Assembly: GCA_021769965.1 (NCBI GenBank)
Contig: JAETRU010000025.1
Coordinates: 1-43,997 of the forward strand
Length of the DNA: 43,997 nt
From: Eubacterium sp.
GTDB taxonomy: Bacteria; Bacillota; Clostridia; Peptostreptococcales; Anaerovoracaceae
Reading direction: 5' to 3'
A program made the position numbers and the translations under genes. This document shows, one piece after another, positions 2,645-43,997 of this stretch (positions are counted from its first letter, which is position 1; each line of letters begins with the position of its first letter). Below the pieces are notes generated by a model, which was not told the DNA's origin, searched no databases, and worked only from the letters and a program-made list of their open reading frames with translations.

Positions 2645-3486
2645 GAAATTTATCCCATATATATTCTCCGGGCATGCCGGAGGAGCATCAGGCGCTGTCC
2701 AACGTCAACTTTGACGTGTACGACGGTGAGATCGTGGGTATCATCGGGCATACGGGCTCTGGCAAATCGACACTCCTCCAGCACCTTAACGGATTGCTGA
2801 AGGCCAGCGAGGGCAGTATCGTGATCGGCGGCGTGGATATCACGGAGCCGGGCGTCAGCATGCGGGATATCCGCAGGCGGGTAGGCCTGGTGTTCCAGTA
2901 TCCGGAGTACCAGCTGTTTGAAGAGACTGTGGCCAGCGATGTGGCCTTCGGGCCGAAGAATCTGGGCCTGTCTCAGGCAGAGGTCGAAGAACGGGTGGAG
3001 GAAGCCATCGAACTGGTGGGACTTGATTATGAGGCCATCAGAGACCGGTCGCCTTTTGAACTGTCCGGTGGACAGAAGAGAAGAGTTGCCATCGCCGGGG
3101 TCATCGCTATGAAACCGCAGGTACTGATTCTGGACGAACCTACGGCGGGACTGGATCCCGGAGCGCACGCGGATATCCTGAAGATGATCCGGCAGGTTCA
3201 TGAGAGCCAGGGCGGCATCATCCTCTTTGTCAGCCATAATATGGCGGATGTAGCCCAGCTTTCGGATAAGGTCATCGTTATGAGCGAAGGAAAGGCAGTC
3301 ATGGTGGGAACGCCGAAAGAGGTGTTTGCCCGGAGGGAACGGCTGGCAGAGCTGGGCCTGGGCGTGCCGCCGGTGACGGAGCTGATGGGAGAACTCAGGG
3401 CGCGGGGCGCGGATGTGGCTGAAACCGTTTTGTCCCTGAAGGAAGCAGAAGAAGAAATCTATAACTATTTGCAGAGGAAAAAATGA
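2629..3486 (+). CDS. ecfA2: ECF transporter ATPase A2
   Basis: The partner ATPase of EcfA1 (285 residues). It has Walker A (GHTGSGKST, about residues 39-47), Q-loop VFQYPEYQLFEETV, signature LSGGQKRR and Walker B LILDEPTAGLDP. The VFQYPEYQLF segment is typical of A2 as opposed to A1 subunits. EcfA1 and EcfA2 form a heterodimer with asymmetric ATP sites. The start lies inside the last codons of ecfA1 and the stop overlaps the ecfT start (ATGA), so the three are translationally coupled. The pair hydrolyses ATP to tilt an S-component carrying its vitamin; which vitamins are served cannot be told from this subunit. Confidence 0.93.
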   Translation: MSIQVRNLSHIYSPGMPEEHQALSNVNFDVYDGEIVGIIGHTGSGKSTLLQHLNGLLKASEGSIVIGGVDITEPGVSMRDIRRRVGLVFQYPEYQLFEETVASDVAFGPKNLGLSQAEVEERVEEAIELVGLDYEAIRDRSPFELSGGQKRRVAIAGVIAMKPQVLILDEPTAGLDPGAHADILKMIRQVHESQGGIILFVSHNMADVAQLSDKVIVMSEGKAVMVGTPKEVFARRERLAELGLGVPPVTELMGELRARGADVAETVLSLKEAEEEIYNYLQRKK

Positions 3487-4283
3487 TAAGAGATATTACA
3501 CTGGGTCAGTATTACGGGAGTCCGTCTCCTGTCCACAGACTGGATCCGAGACTGAAAATCATAGGGACGCTGCTGTTTATCGCTGCGCTGTTCGTGGCCG
3601 ATGACTTCATCGGCATGGCTGTCTGCGCTGTTTTTCTGGCGGTTATAGTCAAAGCGTCCAGGGTTCCGCTGAGCTTCATACTGCGGGGCCTGAAACCGAT
3701 CTTTATCCTGCTCATCTTCACCTTCTGCCTGAACATCTTCATGATGGACGGTCATGTGCTGTGGCAGTGGAAGTTCCTGAAGGTGACGGAAGAAGGCGTG
3801 TACCGGGCTGTATTTATGGCGGTGCGGCTGGTGCTGCTGATCATCGGATCGTCTCTGCTGACCCTGACGACAAAGCCGATCAGTCTGACTGACGGTATAG
3901 AGCGGCTGCTGCGTCCTCTCACGCGGATCGGCGTGCCGGCCCATGAGATCGCCATGATGATGTCCATCGCTTTGCGGTTCATCCCGACTCTTCTGGAAGA
4001 GACCGATAAGATCATGAAGGCGCAGCAGGCCAGAGGCGCGGATTTTGAAAGCGGAAATCTGATCGCCAGAGCTAAATCTCTGGTGCCGATCCTGGTTCCG
4101 CTGTTTGTCAGCGCATTCCGCATAGCGCAGGATCTCGCCATGGCTATGGAGGCCAGATGTTACCGGGGAGGAAAAGGAAGGACCCGGATGCATCAGATGA
4201 AGTTTACGGGAAATGATCTGATCGCCGCCGTGATTCTGGCGGGACTTTTAGGCGTGGTCATTTGTGAAAGGATCGTGTTATGA
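3483..4283 (+). CDS. ecfT: ECF transporter transmembrane subunit T
   Basis: Membrane scaffold (266 residues) that joins the EcfA1/A2 ATPases to interchangeable substrate-binding S-components. Several hydrophobic segments occur in the first half and one at the C-terminus. The two coupling-helix motifs that dock on the ATPases are visible as QARGADFESG and, later, EARCYRGGKG. The start codon overlaps the ecfA2 stop as ATGA and the stop overlaps the trmB start in the same way. Because no S gene is adjacent, this copy is likely the general module shared by several unlinked S-components, for example for folate, riboflavin or cobalamin (inference). Confidence 0.92.
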   Translation: MIRDITLGQYYGSPSPVHRLDPRLKIIGTLLFIAALFVADDFIGMAVCAVFLAVIVKASRVPLSFILRGLKPIFILLIFTFCLNIFMMDGHVLWQWKFLKVTEEGVYRAVFMAVRLVLLIIGSSLLTLTTKPISLTDGIERLLRPLTRIGVPAHEIAMMMSIALRFIPTLLEETDKIMKAQQARGADFESGNLIARAKSLVPILVPLFVSAFRIAQDLAMAMEARCYRGGKGRTRMHQMKFTGNDLIAAVILAGLLGVVICERIVL

Positions 4284-18264: not shown

Positions 18265-18525
18265 GCTTGCTTAAGGCGATGAAGTAGGAAGTTGCGGAGC
18301 TATCCGGTAATTTCTACGGAGAATTGTCCCCACCAGATGGGGGCGAAGGTGTTCGCCGACTTTTGCTTTGTGCGAAAAATAAAGAAACGCACGGAGCCGT
18401 GTGCAAAGTAAGCGATTCCACCGCACACGTTGAGAAGTGGGCATTTGACCGGTATCGCTCCGGTCAGCAAAGAACCCCTTGTACAAGCGTAGCGAAAACA
18501 GTACAAAAATTTTAGGAGGAAAACA
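18265..18525 (+). promoter_or_regulatory. Long structured leader of rpsJ
   Basis: About 260 untranslated bases precede rpsJ. Visible stems are CCCC/GGGG (18328-18345), GGCGAA/TTCGCC (18342-18357) and GACCGG/CCGGTC (18437-18455). GCACGG/CCGTGTGC (18390-18405) competes with CCGTGTGC pairing to GCACACG (18422-18428). Ribosomal protein operons are commonly autoregulated through such leaders, but I do not recognise a known class. Confidence 0.5.
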
Positions 18526-37230: not shown

Positions 37231-37250
37231 AAAAACGTAGTCAATACAGG

Positions 37251-37418
37251 CTTATGTTCCTTTGGCCGGGAGAACTTCCGGCAAAGGCTAAGAGGGAAAC
37301 AGGTGAAAATCCTGCGCGGTCCCGCCACTGTAATGGAGGAGCATCATCTACACATGCCACTGGATACTCTGGGAAGGCAGATGATGTGATGAGTCCAGAG
37401 CCAGGAGACCTGCATAAG
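37251..37418 (+). promoter_or_regulatory. Cobalamin riboswitch 1 (aptamer)
   Basis: P1 is formed by CTTATG (37251-37256) and CATAAG (37413-37418). The core has GCTAAGAGGGAA, GGTGAAAATCC, CCCGCCACTGT and the B12 box GCCAGGAGACCTGC (37400-37413). A following hairpin, TTTCTGA/TCAGAAA, is the likely regulatory kissing-loop stem, and a terminator comes next. In this class, bound cobamide favours termination, so the gene is on when B12 is scarce. Confidence 0.93.
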
Positions 37419-37472
37419 TCCATTTTCTGAGGAGGCGGTGAACCGATTCAGAAAGCAAAGAACAGCAAATAC

Positions 37473-37502
37473 GGGCTGTGGGGTTATCCACAGTCCTTTT
37501 TA
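37473..37502 (+). terminator. Expression-platform terminator of riboswitch 1
   Basis: GGGCTGTGG (37473-37481) pairs with CCACAGTCC (37488-37496) and is followed by TTTTTAT. The loop-side GGTTATCC (37482-37489) can also pair with GGATAACC (37513-37520). A third hairpin, GATAAGGCAGG/CCTGCCTTATC (37544-37554, 37564-37574), lies just before the gene. Confidence 0.82.
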
Positions 37503-37593: not shown

Positions 37594-38376
37594 ATGCGGG
37601 ACAGAATTTATATCGCGACTTTTTCAGAGGATGCTGAAAGCGTTGCGAAACAGTACGGCTTCAGCATTGAACTGAATGACTTTTGTATTTCGGAGAATCT
37701 GGATCCTGAGCGGATCAAAGGGAGTCTGGAAGCGGCACGAAGAGAACTGCAGGCTGCAGGAGCAGAACATGCCATAATGCACGGACCTTTTACAGAAATC
37801 ATTCCCGCTTCTATAGATCATCGCGCTGTGGAGCTTGGTATGGAGAGGCTGCAGCAGGCTTATCAGGCAGCTAGGGATCTGGGGATCAATCGGATGGTGG
37901 TGCACTCAGGGTATATGCCTTTGCTGTACTTCAAGGACTGGCATCATGCGAAGTCCGTAGAGTTCTGGCGGATGTATATGGCGGACAAACCAGATGAGTT
38001 TTCCATATATATTGAAAATGTCTTTGAGGATGAGCCTTGTATGATGCACAGGTTGATCGAGGACATCGGGGACAGCCGGGTCGGTATTTGTCTGGATATT
38101 GGACACGCCAACGCTGTAACATCGGAAGATTATGATATTATGGATTGGATTCAGATCCTGGGGCCGCAGATCAGGCATTTTCATCTCCATAATAACGATG
38201 GAAATCATGATCAGCACGCGTCTCTTGATCAGGGAATCATGAACATGGACGTAGTGATGGATACGATCAGGCACTGCTGCCGGCAGGATGTGACGATGAC
38301 CATCGAAAGCCGGAGCTGCAGGGAGAGCGCGCAGTGGATCGAAGATTGGATCAGGCGGGGGTGTTTAGAGGGTTGA
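37594..38376 (+). CDS. cbiR: TIM-barrel hydrolase, candidate cobamide-remodelling enzyme CbiR
   Basis: 260 residues of the AP-endonuclease-2/xylose-isomerase-like TIM-barrel superfamily. Metal-ligand candidates are His in VVHSGY, Glu in YIENVFED, Asp and His in CLDIGHAN, His in HFHLHNNDG and Glu in TIESRS. It is the only gene under cobalamin riboswitch 1. CbiR of Akkermansia belongs to this superfamily; it cuts the nucleotide loop of imported cobamides so that the lower ligand can be replaced. The B12 control and fold make CbiR the best guess; a plain sugar-phosphate isomerase is the alternative, but those are not usually controlled by B12. GGAGG lies 6 bases before ATG. No terminator is clear after it. 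Confidence 0.65.
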   Translation: MRDRIYIATFSEDAESVAKQYGFSIELNDFCISENLDPERIKGSLEAARRELQAAGAEHAIMHGPFTEIIPASIDHRAVELGMERLQQAYQAARDLGINRMVVHSGYMPLLYFKDWHHAKSVEFWRMYMADKPDEFSIYIENVFEDEPCMMHRLIEDIGDSRVGICLDIGHANAVTSEDYDIMDWIQILGPQIRHFHLHNNDGNHDQHASLDQGIMNMDVVMDTIRHCCRQDVTMTIESRSCRESAQWIEDWIRRGCLEG

Positions 38377-38551: not shown

Positions 38552-38615
38552 TAAAATACATTTTCTCCCAAAGGATATTCCTTTAGGGCTGATAAAACTG
38601 AATTGATATATGTGT

Positions 38616-38781
38616 TTTATGTTCTTCCATAAGGAAGCTAAGAGGGAAGCAGGTGAGAAACCTGCACGGACCCGCCACTGTATTTGAGGAGTTTCGCATC
38701 GAGGCTTAGGCCATCCACTGGGACAAGTTCCCGGGAAGGAGATGCGGGATGAGGATTCATAAGCCAGGAGACCTGCATAGA
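38616..38781 (+). promoter_or_regulatory. Cobalamin riboswitch 2 (aptamer)
   Basis: P1 is TTTATG (38616-38621) with CATAGA (38776-38781). The core has GCTAAGAGGGAAG, CAGGTGAGAAACCTG, CCCGCCACTGT and the B12 box GCCAGGAGACCTGC. TTTGTCA/TGACA (38788-38822) can form the following kissing-loop stem. It differs from riboswitch 1 in the variable arm (38690-38755) but keeps all core motifs. Confidence 0.93.
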
Positions 38782-38855
38782 ATAATTTGTCATTACCGAC
38801 GGGTATTTTCGGAAGAGTGACAGGGAAACAGATGATTCATTGTGACAGTAGATAC

Positions 38856-38887
38856 GGACTGTGGCTTAATTGCCATAGTCCTTTTTT
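38856..38887 (+). terminator. Expression-platform terminator of riboswitch 2
   Basis: GGACTGTGGC (38856-38865) pairs with GCCATAGTCC (38872-38881) and is followed by TTTTTT. The stem sequence is close to that of the riboswitch 1 terminator, so the two control regions are probably an old duplication. Confidence 0.88.
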
Positions 38888-39178
38888 GTTGCGAGATTGA
38901 AATTTTCTCATCCTAATAAAGGGCGGTGTGCAGGAGAAGTACGCTGCCTGGGCGAAGAAAATTTCATATGGTTCGGAAACACAGACTCAGGAGCAGAAAA
39001 AGAATACACGGAGGAGGCTGCATACCAATGTAAGCGAGCAGGTGCGTTTTGCAGCAGAGGCCTTGTAGATACGGCGGGCAGTCGCCAGAGACAAAATGAA
39101 GTAAAAAATATATTTGAGAATGAGAGTTACATACTGCCATGTAATGATCGGACTCAGAAAAAGGAAGGAGAGATTACC
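38888..39178 (+). other. Long untranslated stretch after riboswitch 2
   Basis: There are 291 bases between the terminator and the first gene. TGAAATTTTCT (38898-38908) pairs perfectly with AGAAAATTTCA (38956-38966). The reading frame of the DUF4430 gene stays open upstream to 38897, but it lacks a good start and would add about 94 unlike residues before a clear signal peptide. I therefore read this as leader, or as the remains of a former coding region. Confidence 0.45.
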
Positions 39179-39712
39179 ATGAAAAAGAATCTCAAAAAGA
39201 TTTTTGCAATCGTATTGGCACTGACCATGGTGTTTGCAATGAGCGCAAGTGCGTTCGCAAGCACGGATGCTGAAAATGAAACAATTACCGTTACGGTTGA
39301 GTTCATCGATGAGAACGGTACCGTATACGAGTGCACCGAAGTATCTTTTGATACAAGTACGTTTAACGAACATCTGTATAGCATTCCAGCTAATCCGGGC
39401 ACTGCTGTGATCACAGGGAATACACCTACTGTTATGGATGCAACATATAAGGCGCTTCAGGACTTAGGCAAGAGTTCGGACATGATTACAGGCTGGGATA
39501 CAGAAGACTCCAGAGGGGGAATGTATATTACCAAGATGCTTGGATTGCAAACGGAAACGGCAGCAGATAGTTCTTCAACCGTATGGAGAGGCTACGCCTG
39601 GGAGTATGAAATTGATTATGCGAAACCAGATTCATATGCTACCAATGTTGCATTAAAAAATGGTGATGTAATATCCTGGTGGTATAGATATTGCGAGGAA
39701 CCTATGAATTAA
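39179..39712 (+). CDS. Secreted DUF4430 (transcobalamin-like) protein
   Basis: 177 residues. The signal peptide MKKNLKKIFAIVLALTMVFA ends near SAFAST (about residue 29). After a beta-rich first part, the DUF4430 domain (about 75-175) has TVMDATYKALQDLG, GYAWEYEID and NVALKNGDVISWWY, the last like the GD-x-V-x-W-x-Y strand of transcobalamin-type domains. DUF4430 resembles the B12-binding C-terminal domain of animal transcobalamins. Being the first gene under a B12 riboswitch, it is likely an extracellular B12 binder. No Cys for lipid anchoring follows the signal, and no LPXTG is seen, so it may be free or bound to the neighbour. GGAAGGAG precedes ATG. Confidence 0.82.
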   Translation: MKKNLKKIFAIVLALTMVFAMSASAFASTDAENETITVTVEFIDENGTVYECTEVSFDTSTFNEHLYSIPANPGTAVITGNTPTVMDATYKALQDLGKSSDMITGWDTEDSRGGMYITKMLGLQTETAADSSSTVWRGYAWEYEIDYAKPDSYATNVALKNGDVISWWYRYCEEPMN

Positions 39713-39743
39713 CTTTTAAAAATGTTATATTGAGGTGAAAATA

Positions 39744-42700
39744 ATGAGCATAAAGAAAAAAATATTTGCATTATTCCTCTCCTTTACTATTATATTATCG
39801 GGAGTTCAAGTGGGGAATATTGCTTACGGAGCAGAGACGGATGATACGTCTGCTTCTGTTGCTCCTGCTGGAACTAAAACCGCGTTGCTGGATTCATGCA
39901 GTCTTGAAGGGCGATATAATACTAGTTCGTTTCCAGGTGGTATTCAAATATCTCCGAACTTTAATTCAGAAATATTTGAGTACGAAGTAGTAGTTACACC
40001 TCCACTCAGAACAAATAGTGTAAGCACTGGAATAGAATTCGGGGTTTCTTCTAAGATAGAAGAAGCAACAATAACGGCAAAATATAAAAATGCATCCACA
40101 GGCAAGGAGGAAACGAAACAACCAAACAATGGAAGCGTAAAGATACCATGCGTAAATGCGGATAAGGCATCTTTTCCCGATGGAAACAACGTTGTTATAA
40201 CAGTAACTCCACCGGAGGGATCGGAACTCGAAGCAGGCCAGTATACTTTCAATGTCAAGCTTGCGAACGAGGACCGGTTGATAGGAATAAAATATGGAGA
40301 TACTTGTGATAAAATTCAAAAAAGTATAGTAAATCCAACTTCTTTTAAGGTGGAAGATTTCGATAAATATTATAATTGCAGTCTTGATGTTAATGAAAAT
40401 CAAAAGACCATAGCCTTTGAATTTTATACAGCAGATAACAATACAGAGATTAGTGTAAACAGAGAAGGAAACATTATTCAATCTTTTCCTAATCCAACAA
40501 ATCCAAATTATCCAAAGTATGTATATGTGCATACGACGCCTACATACAGCCTTAATTACGGCACCAATGTGTTTATGGTGAAAACGAAGATCAAAGGTTC
40601 AAATGGAGAAGGTAAAACTTATACTATTACTGTAAATCGTGCCAGACCATTGCTTACCTGCAATTTTTCGGTAGAAGACGGCGATATTATCAGGAACTCA
40701 TTAGTTTCAGAGGGATTTAATAATACGATAGACGGATATACTTATGCGGCAACAGGAAGTAAAAAAACTTTTAAGCTATATGCAAATGCGGCAGAGGACT
40801 GCATCGTCACCTATGATATTCCTGCAACCAGAGAAAACGCCGGGAAGTATGAAAATAAGGTTATAGGCAATGAAGGACTGGAATTAAACAGGCCTACGTA
40901 TGAAAGAAATGGAAGTAAGGACTATTACGACAGATTGAAAATGTCTCCAACCACTGTTAAAATCTATGTTACGAAGCAGGATGAGGAAAATGGAGATGTA
41001 TATGACGAGTATGTTGTAAACATTTATGCAAGGATGCCAGATGGTGCCAGCCGCGTAAGTAGTGCACAATCTGCGCCGGGACAATTTGCAAATTCTACTT
41101 ACGGAAACATAGTTGATTCTACATTGCTTGCGGATATCAACACTGATAACCTATATAATATCCATTCTCTTGGAACTTTCGGAGGTAGTATCACATATGC
41201 GTTTGATGAACCTATCACAAATGATCCAAATAACAAATATGGAGTAGATTTTGTTGTATATGGTAATTCCTTTGGCAGTGGTGCAGCTGAGGCGGCAGCA
41301 GTAAGCGTTTCAAAAGACGGCAATACATGGTACAATCTTGCAGGTTCTGAATATTATGAACTGACGACGGATTGGAATTATTCCGTAACCTATAATAAGG
41401 GAATTGAAAATGGTATCAGCACAAAGTTAGCCTCTTTTACAAGTTCAAATGGCGCGGAAAATTGGTTAAAGTTCCGAAGCGATATGTACTGGCCAATGAA
41501 TTCCCGTCATGTTGTAATCGGAGGAACTGAATTAGGTGAATCATATACCTTGACAGGAGTATGTACCTATGATGGTTCTGGCAAGAAGCCTGTTCATGCT
41601 TTTGGTTATGCAGATGTGTCCCCAAACGGAAATGTTGATCCAACATCCATCCAGGTGGATAATCCATATGTAGAGGGTGCTCAGTATATGGATTTATCAT
41701 GGGCAGTAGATAAGGATGGGAAGCCTGTGCAACTGAACGAAGTGAATTACGTAAAAGTAACCAATTGCGTATTATATTTTTCAGAGGCATTTGGTGAATC
41801 ATCAACAGAAGTTGGTGGAATCACGAAAGTAAATGCATCTGTCATGAAGAATTCTGTCGGAGTAACAAAAGAACCGGCCTCCATTATGATCAACGGAGTT
41901 GAATATAAAGATGCTGATTTTACTACGTTAAACAATGGGCAACAGAAATATCTTGCAGTTGATTTGAATGATATATCTGTGGTATCTCTTGATGTAAATG
42001 TTAAAGGTGCAGCGGACGACAACATTTGGATTAACAACCAAAGAAGTGAAGGGCAAGCAGAAAGAACGATGATTTTAGACTCGAATACAGAAAATTTGGG
42101 GAACCGTATGGTAAGAATTATTGTTCAGAATGGCAATAAAGAGCCATTAATATATGTCTTTGATTTTACTGGTGGTGGAAATTCTGCTGTCAATGCAGAT
42201 TTGGATGAGGTTGTAATTACGCCGGGAGACATTGCTTATTCCGGAACGGATTTTCAGGATGGAATTATTTCCTGTGAAGTTGAAAATAACGTTGAAAAAA
42301 TTGCATTCACAGCAAGAACACTTAATCCAAGTTCAGGTATGACATTAAAAACACCTTCCAATCAAGGAGGCGTTAAATTGGAGAACGGAACTATTTGTGA
42401 TCCAATTTCATTAGCGGAAGGAGAAAATACTTTTGCAATTTTAGTGACTTCAACAGATCATAGCAGTTCAAAAGAATACAAGATTAAGGTTACCCGCAAG
42501 ACAAAGCAGGAAACGAGCAATAGTGACATAAGAGTGACATTTTCTTTTACAGGAGATGTAAAGCATGGGTGCGATGCAGATGGCAACCCGAATCCGGGGC
42601 ATGTGAAAACGCCATGGATTCCATCTACAACTGTGGAAATTCCAAAAGGATCAACAGTGAAGTATCTGACAGATATGATGCTGTATAATTCCGGAATTGC

Positions 42701-43997
42701 ATTTGATGATACAGATGGCACATATATTTCCAAAGTTCAGATACCGGGAAGCAGCAACTGGCTCGGTGAGTTTGACAATGGTAAAAATAGTGGATGGATG
42801 TATCGCCATAACACATTGATTGCCGATGTAGGGTATGCGGCCCGTGTTTTAAGCGATGGAGATACTGTAGAGTGGTTCTATACTGATGACTATACGAAAG
42901 AAACTGGTTTTGAAAGTGGTAACTGGGATATTTCTGCTGATGAACAGCCAGCTACCGAAGTTACTACTACCGGCGCTTCCGGCTCTGCTGTAACGACGAC
43001 GCCAACAGAGGTTACGGTCAGCGGTGATGTCGCTGCGGCCACGGTCAAGGCGGAGCATGTGACCGAGCTTTTGAAGCAGGCGCAAGAGAACAAGTCCGAA
43101 GAGATCGTGATGCAGGTATCTCCGTCAGCCTCCAAGGGCGCTGAAACAGTGAAACTGCAGCTGGATGCTTCTGCGGTAAGCAGCATGATAGAGAAGACAA
43201 CTGCTGTGGTGACCGCGTCCACCGAAAACGGAACTGTGACACTGGATCGGGAGATCCTGAAACAGGCGGTATCTGAGGCTGGCGGCAAGGCCATCACGCT
43301 GGAAATCGTGAAGCCGAAGACCGTAACAGCGGAACAGAGAAAAGCGGCAGGAGAAAGCGCGCAGTTTATTCAGGCGGCGCTGAAATCCGGAGACAAGACG
43401 ATCTCAACCTTTGATCAGGGCAAGGCCACGGTCAGAGTGGAAGTGCCGGAGAATCTGCAGGACAAGAAGATTGCAGCTGTATCTATCAGAGAAGACGGCA
43501 CACTGGAAGTGCTGAACGGAAAGACTTTGACCGAAGGCGGAAAGACGTACTACCAGTTCACTGTCTCTTCTTTCGGAACCTTTGCTCTGGTGGATGCAGA
43601 CGAGGCCGGCGTGGAGGTGCCGCTGGATCCTATGCCGGAAGAAGTCAAAGAAAAACTCATTGCCGGCGTCAGAGCAACGACCATCAAGGCAGGATCTTCA
43701 TTGAATCAGACTTCCATTAAACTGACCTGGACCAAGTCCAAAGGCTACAAGGTGGACGGATATCAGATTTACAGATCCACCAAGAAGTCTTCCGGCTACA
43801 AGAAATATGCGACGACTAAAAAGCTGACCTATACCAACAGGGCGGGCCTGAAGAAGGGAACCCGCTATTACTACAAGGTCTGCGGCTACCGCGAGATCGA
43901 CGGCAAGACTTACTACACCCAGTGGTCCAACAAAGCGTACCGTCTGATGAAGACGAATTCCGTGGACTACGGCGTGAAGAAGACTACAGTCAAAGCT
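39744..43997 (+). CDS. Giant secreted B12-regulated surface protein (partial, runs off the window)
   Basis: An unbroken frame of 1418 codons to the window edge; the end lies outside. GAGGTG lies 6 bases before ATG. It has a signal peptide (about 1-30), then beta-rich, cadherin-like sandwich repeats (about 45-450, 690-930). A segment with DFVVYGNSFGSG and WYNLAGSEY is at about 503-532. A DUF4430 domain (about 931-1051) has PKGSTVKYLTDMM, NSGWMYRHN and SDGDTVEWFY. A Thr-rich linker (about 1060-1085), a further beta-rich region and an Fn3-like module (about 1333-1403) with DGYQIYRS and YYYKVCGYREIDGKT follow. It is 31 bases after the DUF4430 gene and shares its riboswitch. Base composition shifts near 42950, from A/T-rich to G/C-rich. 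Likely role: B12 capture at the cell surface (inference). Confidence 0.85.
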   Translation, partial: MSIKKKIFALFLSFTIILSGVQVGNIAYGAETDDTSASVAPAGTKTALLDSCSLEGRYNTSSFPGGIQISPNFNSEIFEYEVVVTPPLRTNSVSTGIEFGVSSKIEEATITAKYKNASTGKEETKQPNNGSVKIPCVNADKASFPDGNNVVITVTPPEGSELEAGQYTFNVKLANEDRLIGIKYGDTCDKIQKSIVNPTSFKVEDFDKYYNCSLDVNENQKTIAFEFYTADNNTEISVNREGNIIQSFPNPTNPNYPKYVYVHTTPTYSLNYGTNVFMVKTKIKGSNGEGKTYTITVNRARPLLTCNFSVEDGDIIRNSLVSEGFNNTIDGYTYAATGSKKTFKLYANAAEDCIVTYDIPATRENAGKYENKVIGNEGLELNRPTYERNGSKDYYDRLKMSPTTVKIYVTKQDEENGDVYDEYVVNIYARMPDGASRVSSAQSAPGQFANSTYGNIVDSTLLADINTDNLYNIHSLGTFGGSITYAFDEPITNDPNNKYGVDFVVYGNSFGSGAAEAAAVSVSKDGNTWYNLAGSEYYELTTDWNYSVTYNKGIENGISTKLASFTSSNGAENWLKFRSDMYWPMNSRHVVIGGTELGESYTLTGVCTYDGSGKKPVHAFGYADVSPNGNVDPTSIQVDNPYVEGAQYMDLSWAVDKDGKPVQLNEVNYVKVTNCVLYFSEAFGESSTEVGGITKVNASVMKNSVGVTKEPASIMINGVEYKDADFTTLNNGQQKYLAVDLNDISVVSLDVNVKGAADDNIWINNQRSEGQAERTMILDSNTENLGNRMVRIIVQNGNKEPLIYVFDFTGGGNSAVNADLDEVVITPGDIAYSGTDFQDGIISCEVENNVEKIAFTARTLNPSSGMTLKTPSNQGGVKLENGTICDPISLAEGENTFAILVTSTDHSSSKEYKIKVTRKTKQETSNSDIRVTFSFTGDVKHGCDADGNPNPGHVKTPWIPSTTVEIPKGSTVKYLTDMMLYNSGIAFDDTDGTYISKVQIPGSSNWLGEFDNGKNSGWMYRHNTLIADVGYAARVLSDGDTVEWFYTDDYTKETGFESGNWDISADEQPATEVTTTGASGSAVTTTPTEVTVSGDVAAATVKAEHVTELLKQAQENKSEEIVMQVSPSASKGAETVKLQLDASAVSSMIEKTTAVVTASTENGTVTLDREILKQAVSEAGGKAITLEIVKPKTVTAEQRKAAGESAQFIQAALKSGDKTISTFDQGKATVRVEVPENLQDKKIAAVSIREDGTLEVLNGKTLTEGGKTYYQFTVSSFGTFALVDADEAGVEVPLDPMPEEVKEKLIAGVRATTIKAGSSLNQTSIKLTWTKSKGYKVDGYQIYRSTKKSSGYKKYATTKKLTYTNRAGLKKGTRYYYKVCGYREIDGKTYYTQWSNKAYRLMKTNSVDYGVKKTTVKA

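Follow-up and report, generated by a model that had tools for sequence, protein, structure and literature searches.

A cobalamin-riboswitch-led gene pair for secreted DUF4430 proteins, one with a BtuH-like domain, is a probable cobamide capture system in a Eubacterium sp.

In 2007, transcobalamin-like domains of Gram-positive bacteria were predicted to scavenge vitamin B12 (Burroughs et al., PMC1796856). The same article describes fusions to toroids, operons with CbiO/CbiQ, and a second paralogous extracellular protein, and it traces the human B12 carriers to Gram-positive bacteria. The transcobalamin-like SLBB clade of that work appears to correspond to the Pfam family DUF4430. In Bacteroides thetaiotaomicron, BtuH2 binds B12 through a surface domain (PMC8941943), and BtuG1 has a homologous extension, its H-domain (PMC10404256); three Firmicutes with btuH homologues, one of them near a predicted energy-coupling factor (ECF) transporter, have also been noted (PMC8941943). 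A third relevant system, ECF-CbrT, was deposited as the vitamin B12 transporter of Lactobacillus delbrueckii (6FNP; PMC5997447). Here, we describe a locus in contig C80 of a Eubacterium sp., the entire 43,997 nt of which form the window analyzed (source assembly, 2.99 Mb in 82 contigs, 97% complete), where a cobalamin riboswitch precedes the genes for a small secreted DUF4430 protein, P0001, and a very large one, P0002, that also contains a BtuH-like domain. The observation is real, and a B12 or cobamide capture system is its probable meaning, a direction for which the sequence gives good support; more specifically, the riboswitch-P0001-P0002 locus is likely to capture cobamides at the cell surface under repression by B12. 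Capture of this kind was already predicted in 2007, and what is added here is the fusion of a BtuH-like (H) domain to DUF4430, together with the riboswitch statistics. The features of the locus are as follows.

38602 to 38794, plus strand: cobalamin riboswitch aptamer (RF00174), full length, Rfam 115.3 bits, E 2.4e-28
38856 to 38889, plus strand: intrinsic terminator, probable riboswitch expression platform; 10-pair stem at 38856-38881, then TTTTTT
39179 to 39712, plus strand: P0001, small secreted DUF4430 (transcobalamin beta-domain-like) protein, 177 residues (translation, Pfam, AlphaFold, Foldseek)
39434 to 39685, plus strand: DUF4430 domain of P0001, residues 86-169 (Pfam)
39744 to 43997, plus strand: P0002, large secreted protein, at least 1418 residues, truncated by the contig end (translation)
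40374 to 40640, plus strand: first Cadherin-like beta-sandwich of P0002, residues 211-299 (26.5 bits)
41067 to 41834, plus strand: BtuH-like domain of P0002, residues ~442-697 (phmmer, own profile seeded from it, Foldseek)
42276 to 42500, plus strand: second Cadherin-like beta-sandwich of P0002, residues 845-919 (Pfam)
42612 to 42908, plus strand: DUF4430 domain of P0002 (Pfam 26.3 bits, cut-off 23.8; own iterated profile, 84.5 bits)
43695 to 43898, plus strand: fibronectin-III-like repeat of P0002 (fn3 19.2 bits, under the Pfam cut-off), in a tail common to a protein on contig C76 of the same genome

The aptamer, for which the Rfam gathering score is 31.5 bits, lies upstream of and co-directional with P0001, and the 101-nt stretch at the terminator that follows it folds with z = -3.1. 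Aptamer and terminator can be read directly from the DNA, and we infer an OFF switch. The preliminary description of this DNA had placed a cobalamin riboswitch with its terminator ahead of a small and then a very large secreted DUF4430 protein, and Rfam, the stem with its U run, and Pfam all bear this out; the riboswitch start it gave, 38616, is replaced by the Rfam start, 38602. The BtuH-like domain of P0002 and a second riboswitch with terminator, ahead of a CbiR-like gene, are absent from that description.

P0002 begins 31 bases after the P0001 stop codon, and the N terminus of each protein resembles a signal peptide when judged by eye. P0001 matches DUF4430 (PF14478) at 26.4 bits, a score that is low, as is that of P0002, and lies above the Pfam cut-off of 23.8, and reaches 36.3 bits with a profile iterated on the open reading frames (ORFs) of relatives; because ORFs of the window were in the set behind that profile, this second score and the 84.5 bits of P0002 are support and no independent test, and the independent support for the call is structural. 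The AlphaFold model of P0001 (predicted local distance difference test, pLDDT, of 85) has two strands, a helix at residues 85-95, extra strands at 103-107 and 114-120, and strands at 135-145 and 164-175, and a hairpin is deduced from this list of predicted strands. Rows 1-19 of its Foldseek search consist solely of 3u7z, haptocorrin, transcobalamin, and intrinsic factor (E 4e-5 to 2e-3), after which E jumps to 0.05. Entry 5np4, one of these matches, contains the beta domain of human transcobalamin on its own together with cyanocobalamin, which shows that ligand can be carried by such a domain alone. Chance, considered as a source of the DUF4430 calls, was rejected on these structural matches. 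With the animal carriers transcobalamin, haptocorrin, and intrinsic factor, P0001 shares the predicted beta-domain fold, and a profile of bacterial toroid-plus-DUF4430 modules from relatives (built from 24 of 30 modules) reaches transcobalamin-2 at E 1.9e-5, with squalene-hopene and related cyclases ranking higher. The window pair differs from those carriers in lacking the toroid half, and the toroids of this genome sit on contigs C27, C52, and C76. A sequence search of the PDB with P0001 gave nothing useful, and PADLOC gave no match for it.

P0002 brings a second family into the locus. By phmmer, its residues 442-692 match the BtuH2 crystal structure (7biz_A, E 4.4e-11) and the H-domain of BtuG1 (8blw_B, E 6.8e-11). 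An AlphaFold model of residues 433-1072, made from a 38-row alignment, has a pLDDT of 84.8, and its top three Foldseek matches are BtuG1 and BtuH2 (E 3e-17 to 3e-15; 7biz_B, 8e-16), with template modeling (TM) scores by target length of 0.33-0.43 and the next match at E 2.4e-7. These matches make residues ~442-697 of P0002 a homolog of BtuH, the domain with which Bacteroides binds B12 at its surface. At the BtuH2 contact positions named in PMC8941943, P0002 retains both nucleotide-loop contacts (Gln333 as Q, Asn399 as N), and H domains outside the Bacteroidota, with L262 skipped in the residue counts, have Asn399 as N in 61/64 and Gln333 as Q in 40/64 (19 gaps). The corrin-ring contacts tell against B12 binding of the BtuH2 type, since His476, Tyr510, Trp511, and Trp577 are R, S, G, and A in P0002, and the non-Bacteroidota H domains keep Trp577 in 0/64 and His476 in 11/64. 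Bacteroidota H domains have His476 and Trp577 in 13/15 each and Tyr510 and Trp511 in 3/15 and 4/15, so the latter two are not general there. Going by the aligned residues, the BtuH-like domain retains the fold and the pocket's phosphate side, and the ring side is changed. The assignment of P0002 as a true BtuH was rejected on the corrin-ring contacts, and the name BtuH-like is used instead; the changed contacts make that identity less likely and leave the choice of cobamide wide.

A different ligand has to be weighed here. The proteins might bind another corrinoid or a related compound, such as cobinamide, a base-variant cobamide, or possibly haem or a metal, and their role would then be remodeling or precursor salvage, not the uptake of complete B12. 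The replaced ring contacts beside the remaining nucleotide-loop contacts would fit such a role, as would the CbiR-like gene with its own riboswitch that adjoins the pair (CbiR-like genes occur in 19/114 of the DUF4430 regions of relatives described below). The Ruminococcus gnavus protein 3u7z, a structural relative of P0001 that we take to be a DUF4430 member (its match to the DUF4430 profile is at E 0.36 only), was titled putative metal-binding by its depositors, which also counts against B12 as the ligand. The retained nucleotide-loop contacts, however, favor complete cobamides over cobinamide, and control by a cobalamin riboswitch speaks against haem or metal. We consider this alternative unlikely.

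Capture of cobamides is also suggested by the company that DUF4430 keeps across the family: of 100 genomes, 74 have DUF4430 and 83 have cobalamin riboswitches. The analysis covered 150 of a longer list of DUF4430 matches and the best 150 of 303 riboswitch matches, and regions of up to 20 kb were taken around the listed DUF4430 matches of other genomes. This gave 115 regions in 67 genomes, or 114 once L101, which overlaps L100, was left out; L105/L106, L139/L140, and L147/L148 overlap and share riboswitches. Counted with Rfam only, these regions, which amount to 1.95 Mb of ~205 Mb, or ~1% of the sequence, contain 55 of the 144 best-listed riboswitches of other genomes. Of the 36 riboswitches used to make R1, a covariance model of our own, 34 lie in these regions, so that its counts lean upward and the Rfam count is unaffected. 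With R1, and with matches below 34 bits not counted, a riboswitch was present in 71/114 regions (61/114 at 60 bits) and lay upstream on the same strand for 87/145 DUF4430 matches, a figure that becomes 63/89 for those with at least 9 kb upstream in view. The DUF4430-riboswitch pairs comprise 108 with the riboswitch upstream on the same strand, 28 with it downstream on the same strand, and 7 with it on the other strand, and the density at 60 bits was 45/Mb in these regions versus 1.4/Mb genome-wide (the latter by Rfam with stricter filters). The association extends over 46/67 genomes and 30/43 genera, and the reading as a link peculiar to one genome was rejected.

Twenty control regions at round coordinates in the same genomes held no riboswitch of at least 34 bits. 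The sole control match, at 33.7 bits in L172 (G024:C1:40000-59999), is followed immediately by an H-domain ORF and, farther on, by DUF4430 and toroid genes, so this region is no true control. Genes for ECF S or T components were found in 59/114 DUF4430 regions and 0/20 controls, and in all 59 the gene lies within 4 kb of a DUF4430 ORF on the same strand; toroid genes were found in 70/114 regions and 1/20 controls.

The H domains were surveyed by scanning an 11-sequence alignment against named genomes, from which 80 of 90 relatives were kept, several from one genome; split by the names of their sequence records, these are 65 non-Bacteroidota and 15 Bacteroidota loci. H and DUF4430 occur in one ORF at 46/65 non-Bacteroidota loci versus 0/15 Bacteroidota loci, as counted with the dufc profile (our duf448 and P1 profiles span more than DUF4430). 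All 11 seeds derive from the window or DUF4430 regions, and DUF4430 is present in 10/11 seed ORFs, which may favor fused relatives; after removal of the loci that hold a seed (8/80 overall), the fusion count is 39/57 non-Bacteroidota loci. A toroid is joined to H and DUF4430 in the same ORF at 10/65. Model R1 placed a riboswitch upstream of 15/15 Bacteroidota loci and 23/65 others, and Rfam, run on the 38 of these 65 that lacked an R1 match at the 34-bit level, adds one at 13/38, including one match to the sister family RF01482 and one ~8 kb upstream (L249). Compared with BtuH2 and the BtuG1 H-domain as described in PMC8941943 and PMC10404256, the domain studied here has in common a length of ~250 residues, a place on a secreted protein, a B12 riboswitch, the predicted fold, and Gln333/Asn399, and differs in its Gram-positive relatives, its altered corrin-ring contacts, and its fusion to DUF4430 and in some loci a toroid too. 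BtuH-like domains were also seen beyond Bacteroidota and Bacillota, in Propionibacteriaceae, Synergistaceae, and Kiritimatiellae records (L207, L227, L244, and L254).

These giant proteins could instead be mainly adhesins or parts of the wall structure, with the DUF4430 and BtuH-like domains playing a structural role and the riboswitch link reflecting a B12-dependent lifestyle. Relatives carry immunoglobulin (Ig)-like, Cadherin-like, GLUG, S-layer homology (SLH), or choline-binding repeats, as adhesins might, and the loss of the BtuH2 ring contacts would be in keeping with a structural domain. Adhesion alone does not predict, however, that two unrelated families with B12-binding relatives should be joined repeatedly, in neighborhoods of B12 riboswitches and ECF genes, and we regard an adhesin function as very unlikely to be the main one.

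The arrangement of a small protein followed by a giant is a minority one, with 8 pairs in the set of relatives plus this genome and 4 loci in the H set. L090 and L134, both of one genus, show a riboswitch, a small P0001-like protein, an H+DUF4430 giant, a second riboswitch, a toroid, DUF4430, EcfT, and EcfA/S; for L134, the first riboswitch is outside the stretch examined and is seen in L236 of the same contig. Secreted sequestration, in which P0001 especially would be released to deny cobamides to competitors and not to feed the cell's own importer, finds some support in this rarity, since the small protein is then not always needed, and in the shortness of P0001, which has no anchor visible by eye. 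The co-location with ECF importers nevertheless favors uptake, and the four large relatives that were scanned end in SLH repeats (3) or choline-binding repeats (1). We find sequestration improbable.

The importer served by capture probably lies elsewhere in this genome. On C27, a riboswitch leads an operon for the ECF parts EcfT, fused EcfAA', and an S-component, together with an HNH-repeat protein, a toroid protein, and a 448-residue DUF4430 protein. The best PDB sequence match of the S-component is 6fnp (E 4e-7, covering residues 66-168 of 310), the matched chain of which appears to be CbrT. The parts of ECF-CbrT found on C27 are EcfT, EcfA/A', a CbrT-related S-component, and a B12 riboswitch; what the two systems share is the S-component beside EcfT and fused EcfA, and the C27 operon differs in that, behind its B12 riboswitch, it also has genes for toroid and DUF4430 proteins that are extracellular. 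No FecCD (BtuC) permease was found in this genome, whereas one is present in 13/14 control genomes, and uptake through BtuFCD is thus unlikely, barring genes that the 97% complete assembly lacks.

Taken together, we propose that when adenosylcobalamin is scarce in the cell, the riboswitch would let transcription pass the terminator, and that the cell would then secrete P0001, as a free transcobalamin-beta-like domain, and P0002, as a large and probably wall-held protein with BtuH-like and DUF4430 domains. Both could bind cobamides outside the membrane, so that these would be more concentrated near an ECF importer. This importer is probably the one encoded by the C27 operon, with its EcfT, fused EcfAA', CbrT-like S-component, alpha/alpha toroid, and membrane-held DUF4430 protein, and the toroid and DUF4430 proteins of this operon resemble the two halves of a transcobalamin. 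The CbiR-like enzyme next door, under its own riboswitch, may remodel the cobamides taken up.

A more specific version, which we put forward tentatively, is that of a two-jaw clamp or relay, in which one Gram-positive surface protein would hold two unrelated cobamide-binding domains, of the Bacteroides and the transcobalamin types. The BtuH-like domain would grip the nucleotide loop and a DUF4430 domain, either that of P0001 or P0002's own, would close over the corrin ring. DUF4430 would thus replace the lost ring contacts before the ligand is handed over to a toroid/DUF4430/ECF-CbrT-like complex at the membrane. If this were true, these bacteria would be a meeting point of two known designs for B12 capture at the surface.

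Several further observations weigh against a cobamide capture system at this locus. P0001 is divergent, with 15-28% identity to its alignment partners and a DUF4430 score barely above the Pfam cut-off, and its Foldseek TM scores are modest, at 0.37-0.48 by query length for rows 1-19. The DUF4430-only profile reaches transcobalamin at just E 0.044, and the toroid-only profile at E 0.01 finds only squalene-type cyclases and no B12 carrier. By the toroid profile, neither window protein has an alpha/alpha toroid, which animal carriers have in the same protein, and no transcobalamin-type B12 carrier is among the best 50 Foldseek rows for the P0002 433-1072 model. Among relatives, 43/114 DUF4430 regions had no riboswitch reaching 34 bits, in some cases owing to contig ends, and the small protein of L090 has no Pfam match, being P0001-like by our own profile. 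Within this genome, the C33 DUF4430 gene has no riboswitch (all nine riboswitches of the genome are on other contigs), the best Pfam model for the C27 S-component is the riboflavin S-component (68.5 bits), and the sole ECF S/T match in the window is an EcfT-type ORF at 3483-4283, 35 kb away (own profile, 132.5 bits). Cobamide biosynthesis genes are also present on C54, as read by eye. On the supporting side, B12-binding domains (PF02310) occur at 10 places in the genome, 9 of them above the cut-off, and the organism probably both makes and scavenges cobamides.

Against these points stand the riboswitch association, the P0001 structure, the BtuH-homologous domain, and the ECF operons in relatives and in this genome, on all of which the candidate B12 capture system of the preliminary description holds up. 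The likeness of DUF4430 to the B12-binding domain of transcobalamins is seen in the structural matches of P0001. A lack of association between DUF4430 genes and B12 riboswitches across genomes, which that description named as a refutation, is contradicted by the counts above, and transporters lie nearby. Its remark that a comparable two-part surface capture system is not well described in Firmicutes is qualified by the 2007 prediction of a scavenging role (PMC1796856). In searches of the open-licence PMC literature, no title or abstract start pointed to a BtuH-DUF4430 fusion or to a binding measurement on a bacterial DUF4430 protein. With the SLBB clade of PMC1796856, the proteins described here have in common that they are secreted by Gram-positive bacteria, have toroid partners, form paralogous extracellular pairs, and occur in CbiO/CbiQ-type operons. 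The word riboswitch is absent from that article and its passages on these domains name no BtuH-type domain, and both of these links are added here. They give independent support for the 2007 prediction, name proteins and cultured strains for testing, and, through the repeated joining of BtuH-like and DUF4430 domains in B12-riboswitch genes, tie many giant surface proteins of obscure role to one nutrient. A capture pair could explain how such Clostridia compete for scarce vitamin B12 and, if true, would bear on where the human B12 carriers came from.

Two further features lie directly upstream of the pair.

37237 to 37431, plus strand: second cobalamin riboswitch, upstream of the CbiR-like gene, full length, Rfam 114.4 bits, E 4.3e-28
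37594 to 38376, plus strand: TIM-barrel protein resembling CbiR (cobamide remodeling), 260 residues (PF01261; NF041277 50.7 bits, E 1.6e-13)

The second riboswitch has its own terminator, a 10-pair stem and U run at 37473-37496, and is separate from the P0001/P0002 pair. The TIM-barrel protein falls short of the NF041277 cut-off of 105 bits, hence the name CbiR-like, and the deoxyribonuclease IV model NF002198 scores slightly higher (56.6 bits), likewise under its cut-off. The presence of CbiR-like genes near capture genes suggests that cobamide capture is coupled to remodeling.

At the other end of the locus, the last ~379 bases of the window (43619-43997) are 99% identical in DNA to 7259-7637 of C76, and this common tail probably broke the assembly. 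A DNA search with the P0002 tail found only the near-identical C76 end and weaker repeats, and the C terminus of P0002 is absent from the contig. The C76 protein (L020) is a DUF4430 protein of at least 1625 residues with a toroid and FIVAR, behind a 28-bit riboswitch match that is below the gathering score; on C52, L019 is a giant DUF4430 protein of 3130 residues after a B12 riboswitch match of 96 bits.

The first gene after the riboswitch of the C27 operon (L018:13691-14809) encodes a protein with four HNH_repeat (PF18780) stretches, and a C54 ORF (L022:8873-9904) that looks related to it by eye likewise follows a riboswitch. HNH-repeat matches occur in 7 ORFs of the set of relatives plus this genome, the C27 one included, and 2 of them stand just after a riboswitch. 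Elsewhere in the window, an S10-Clostridia ribosomal protein leader (RF03136) at 18271-18346 scores 40.6 bits and is ordinary.

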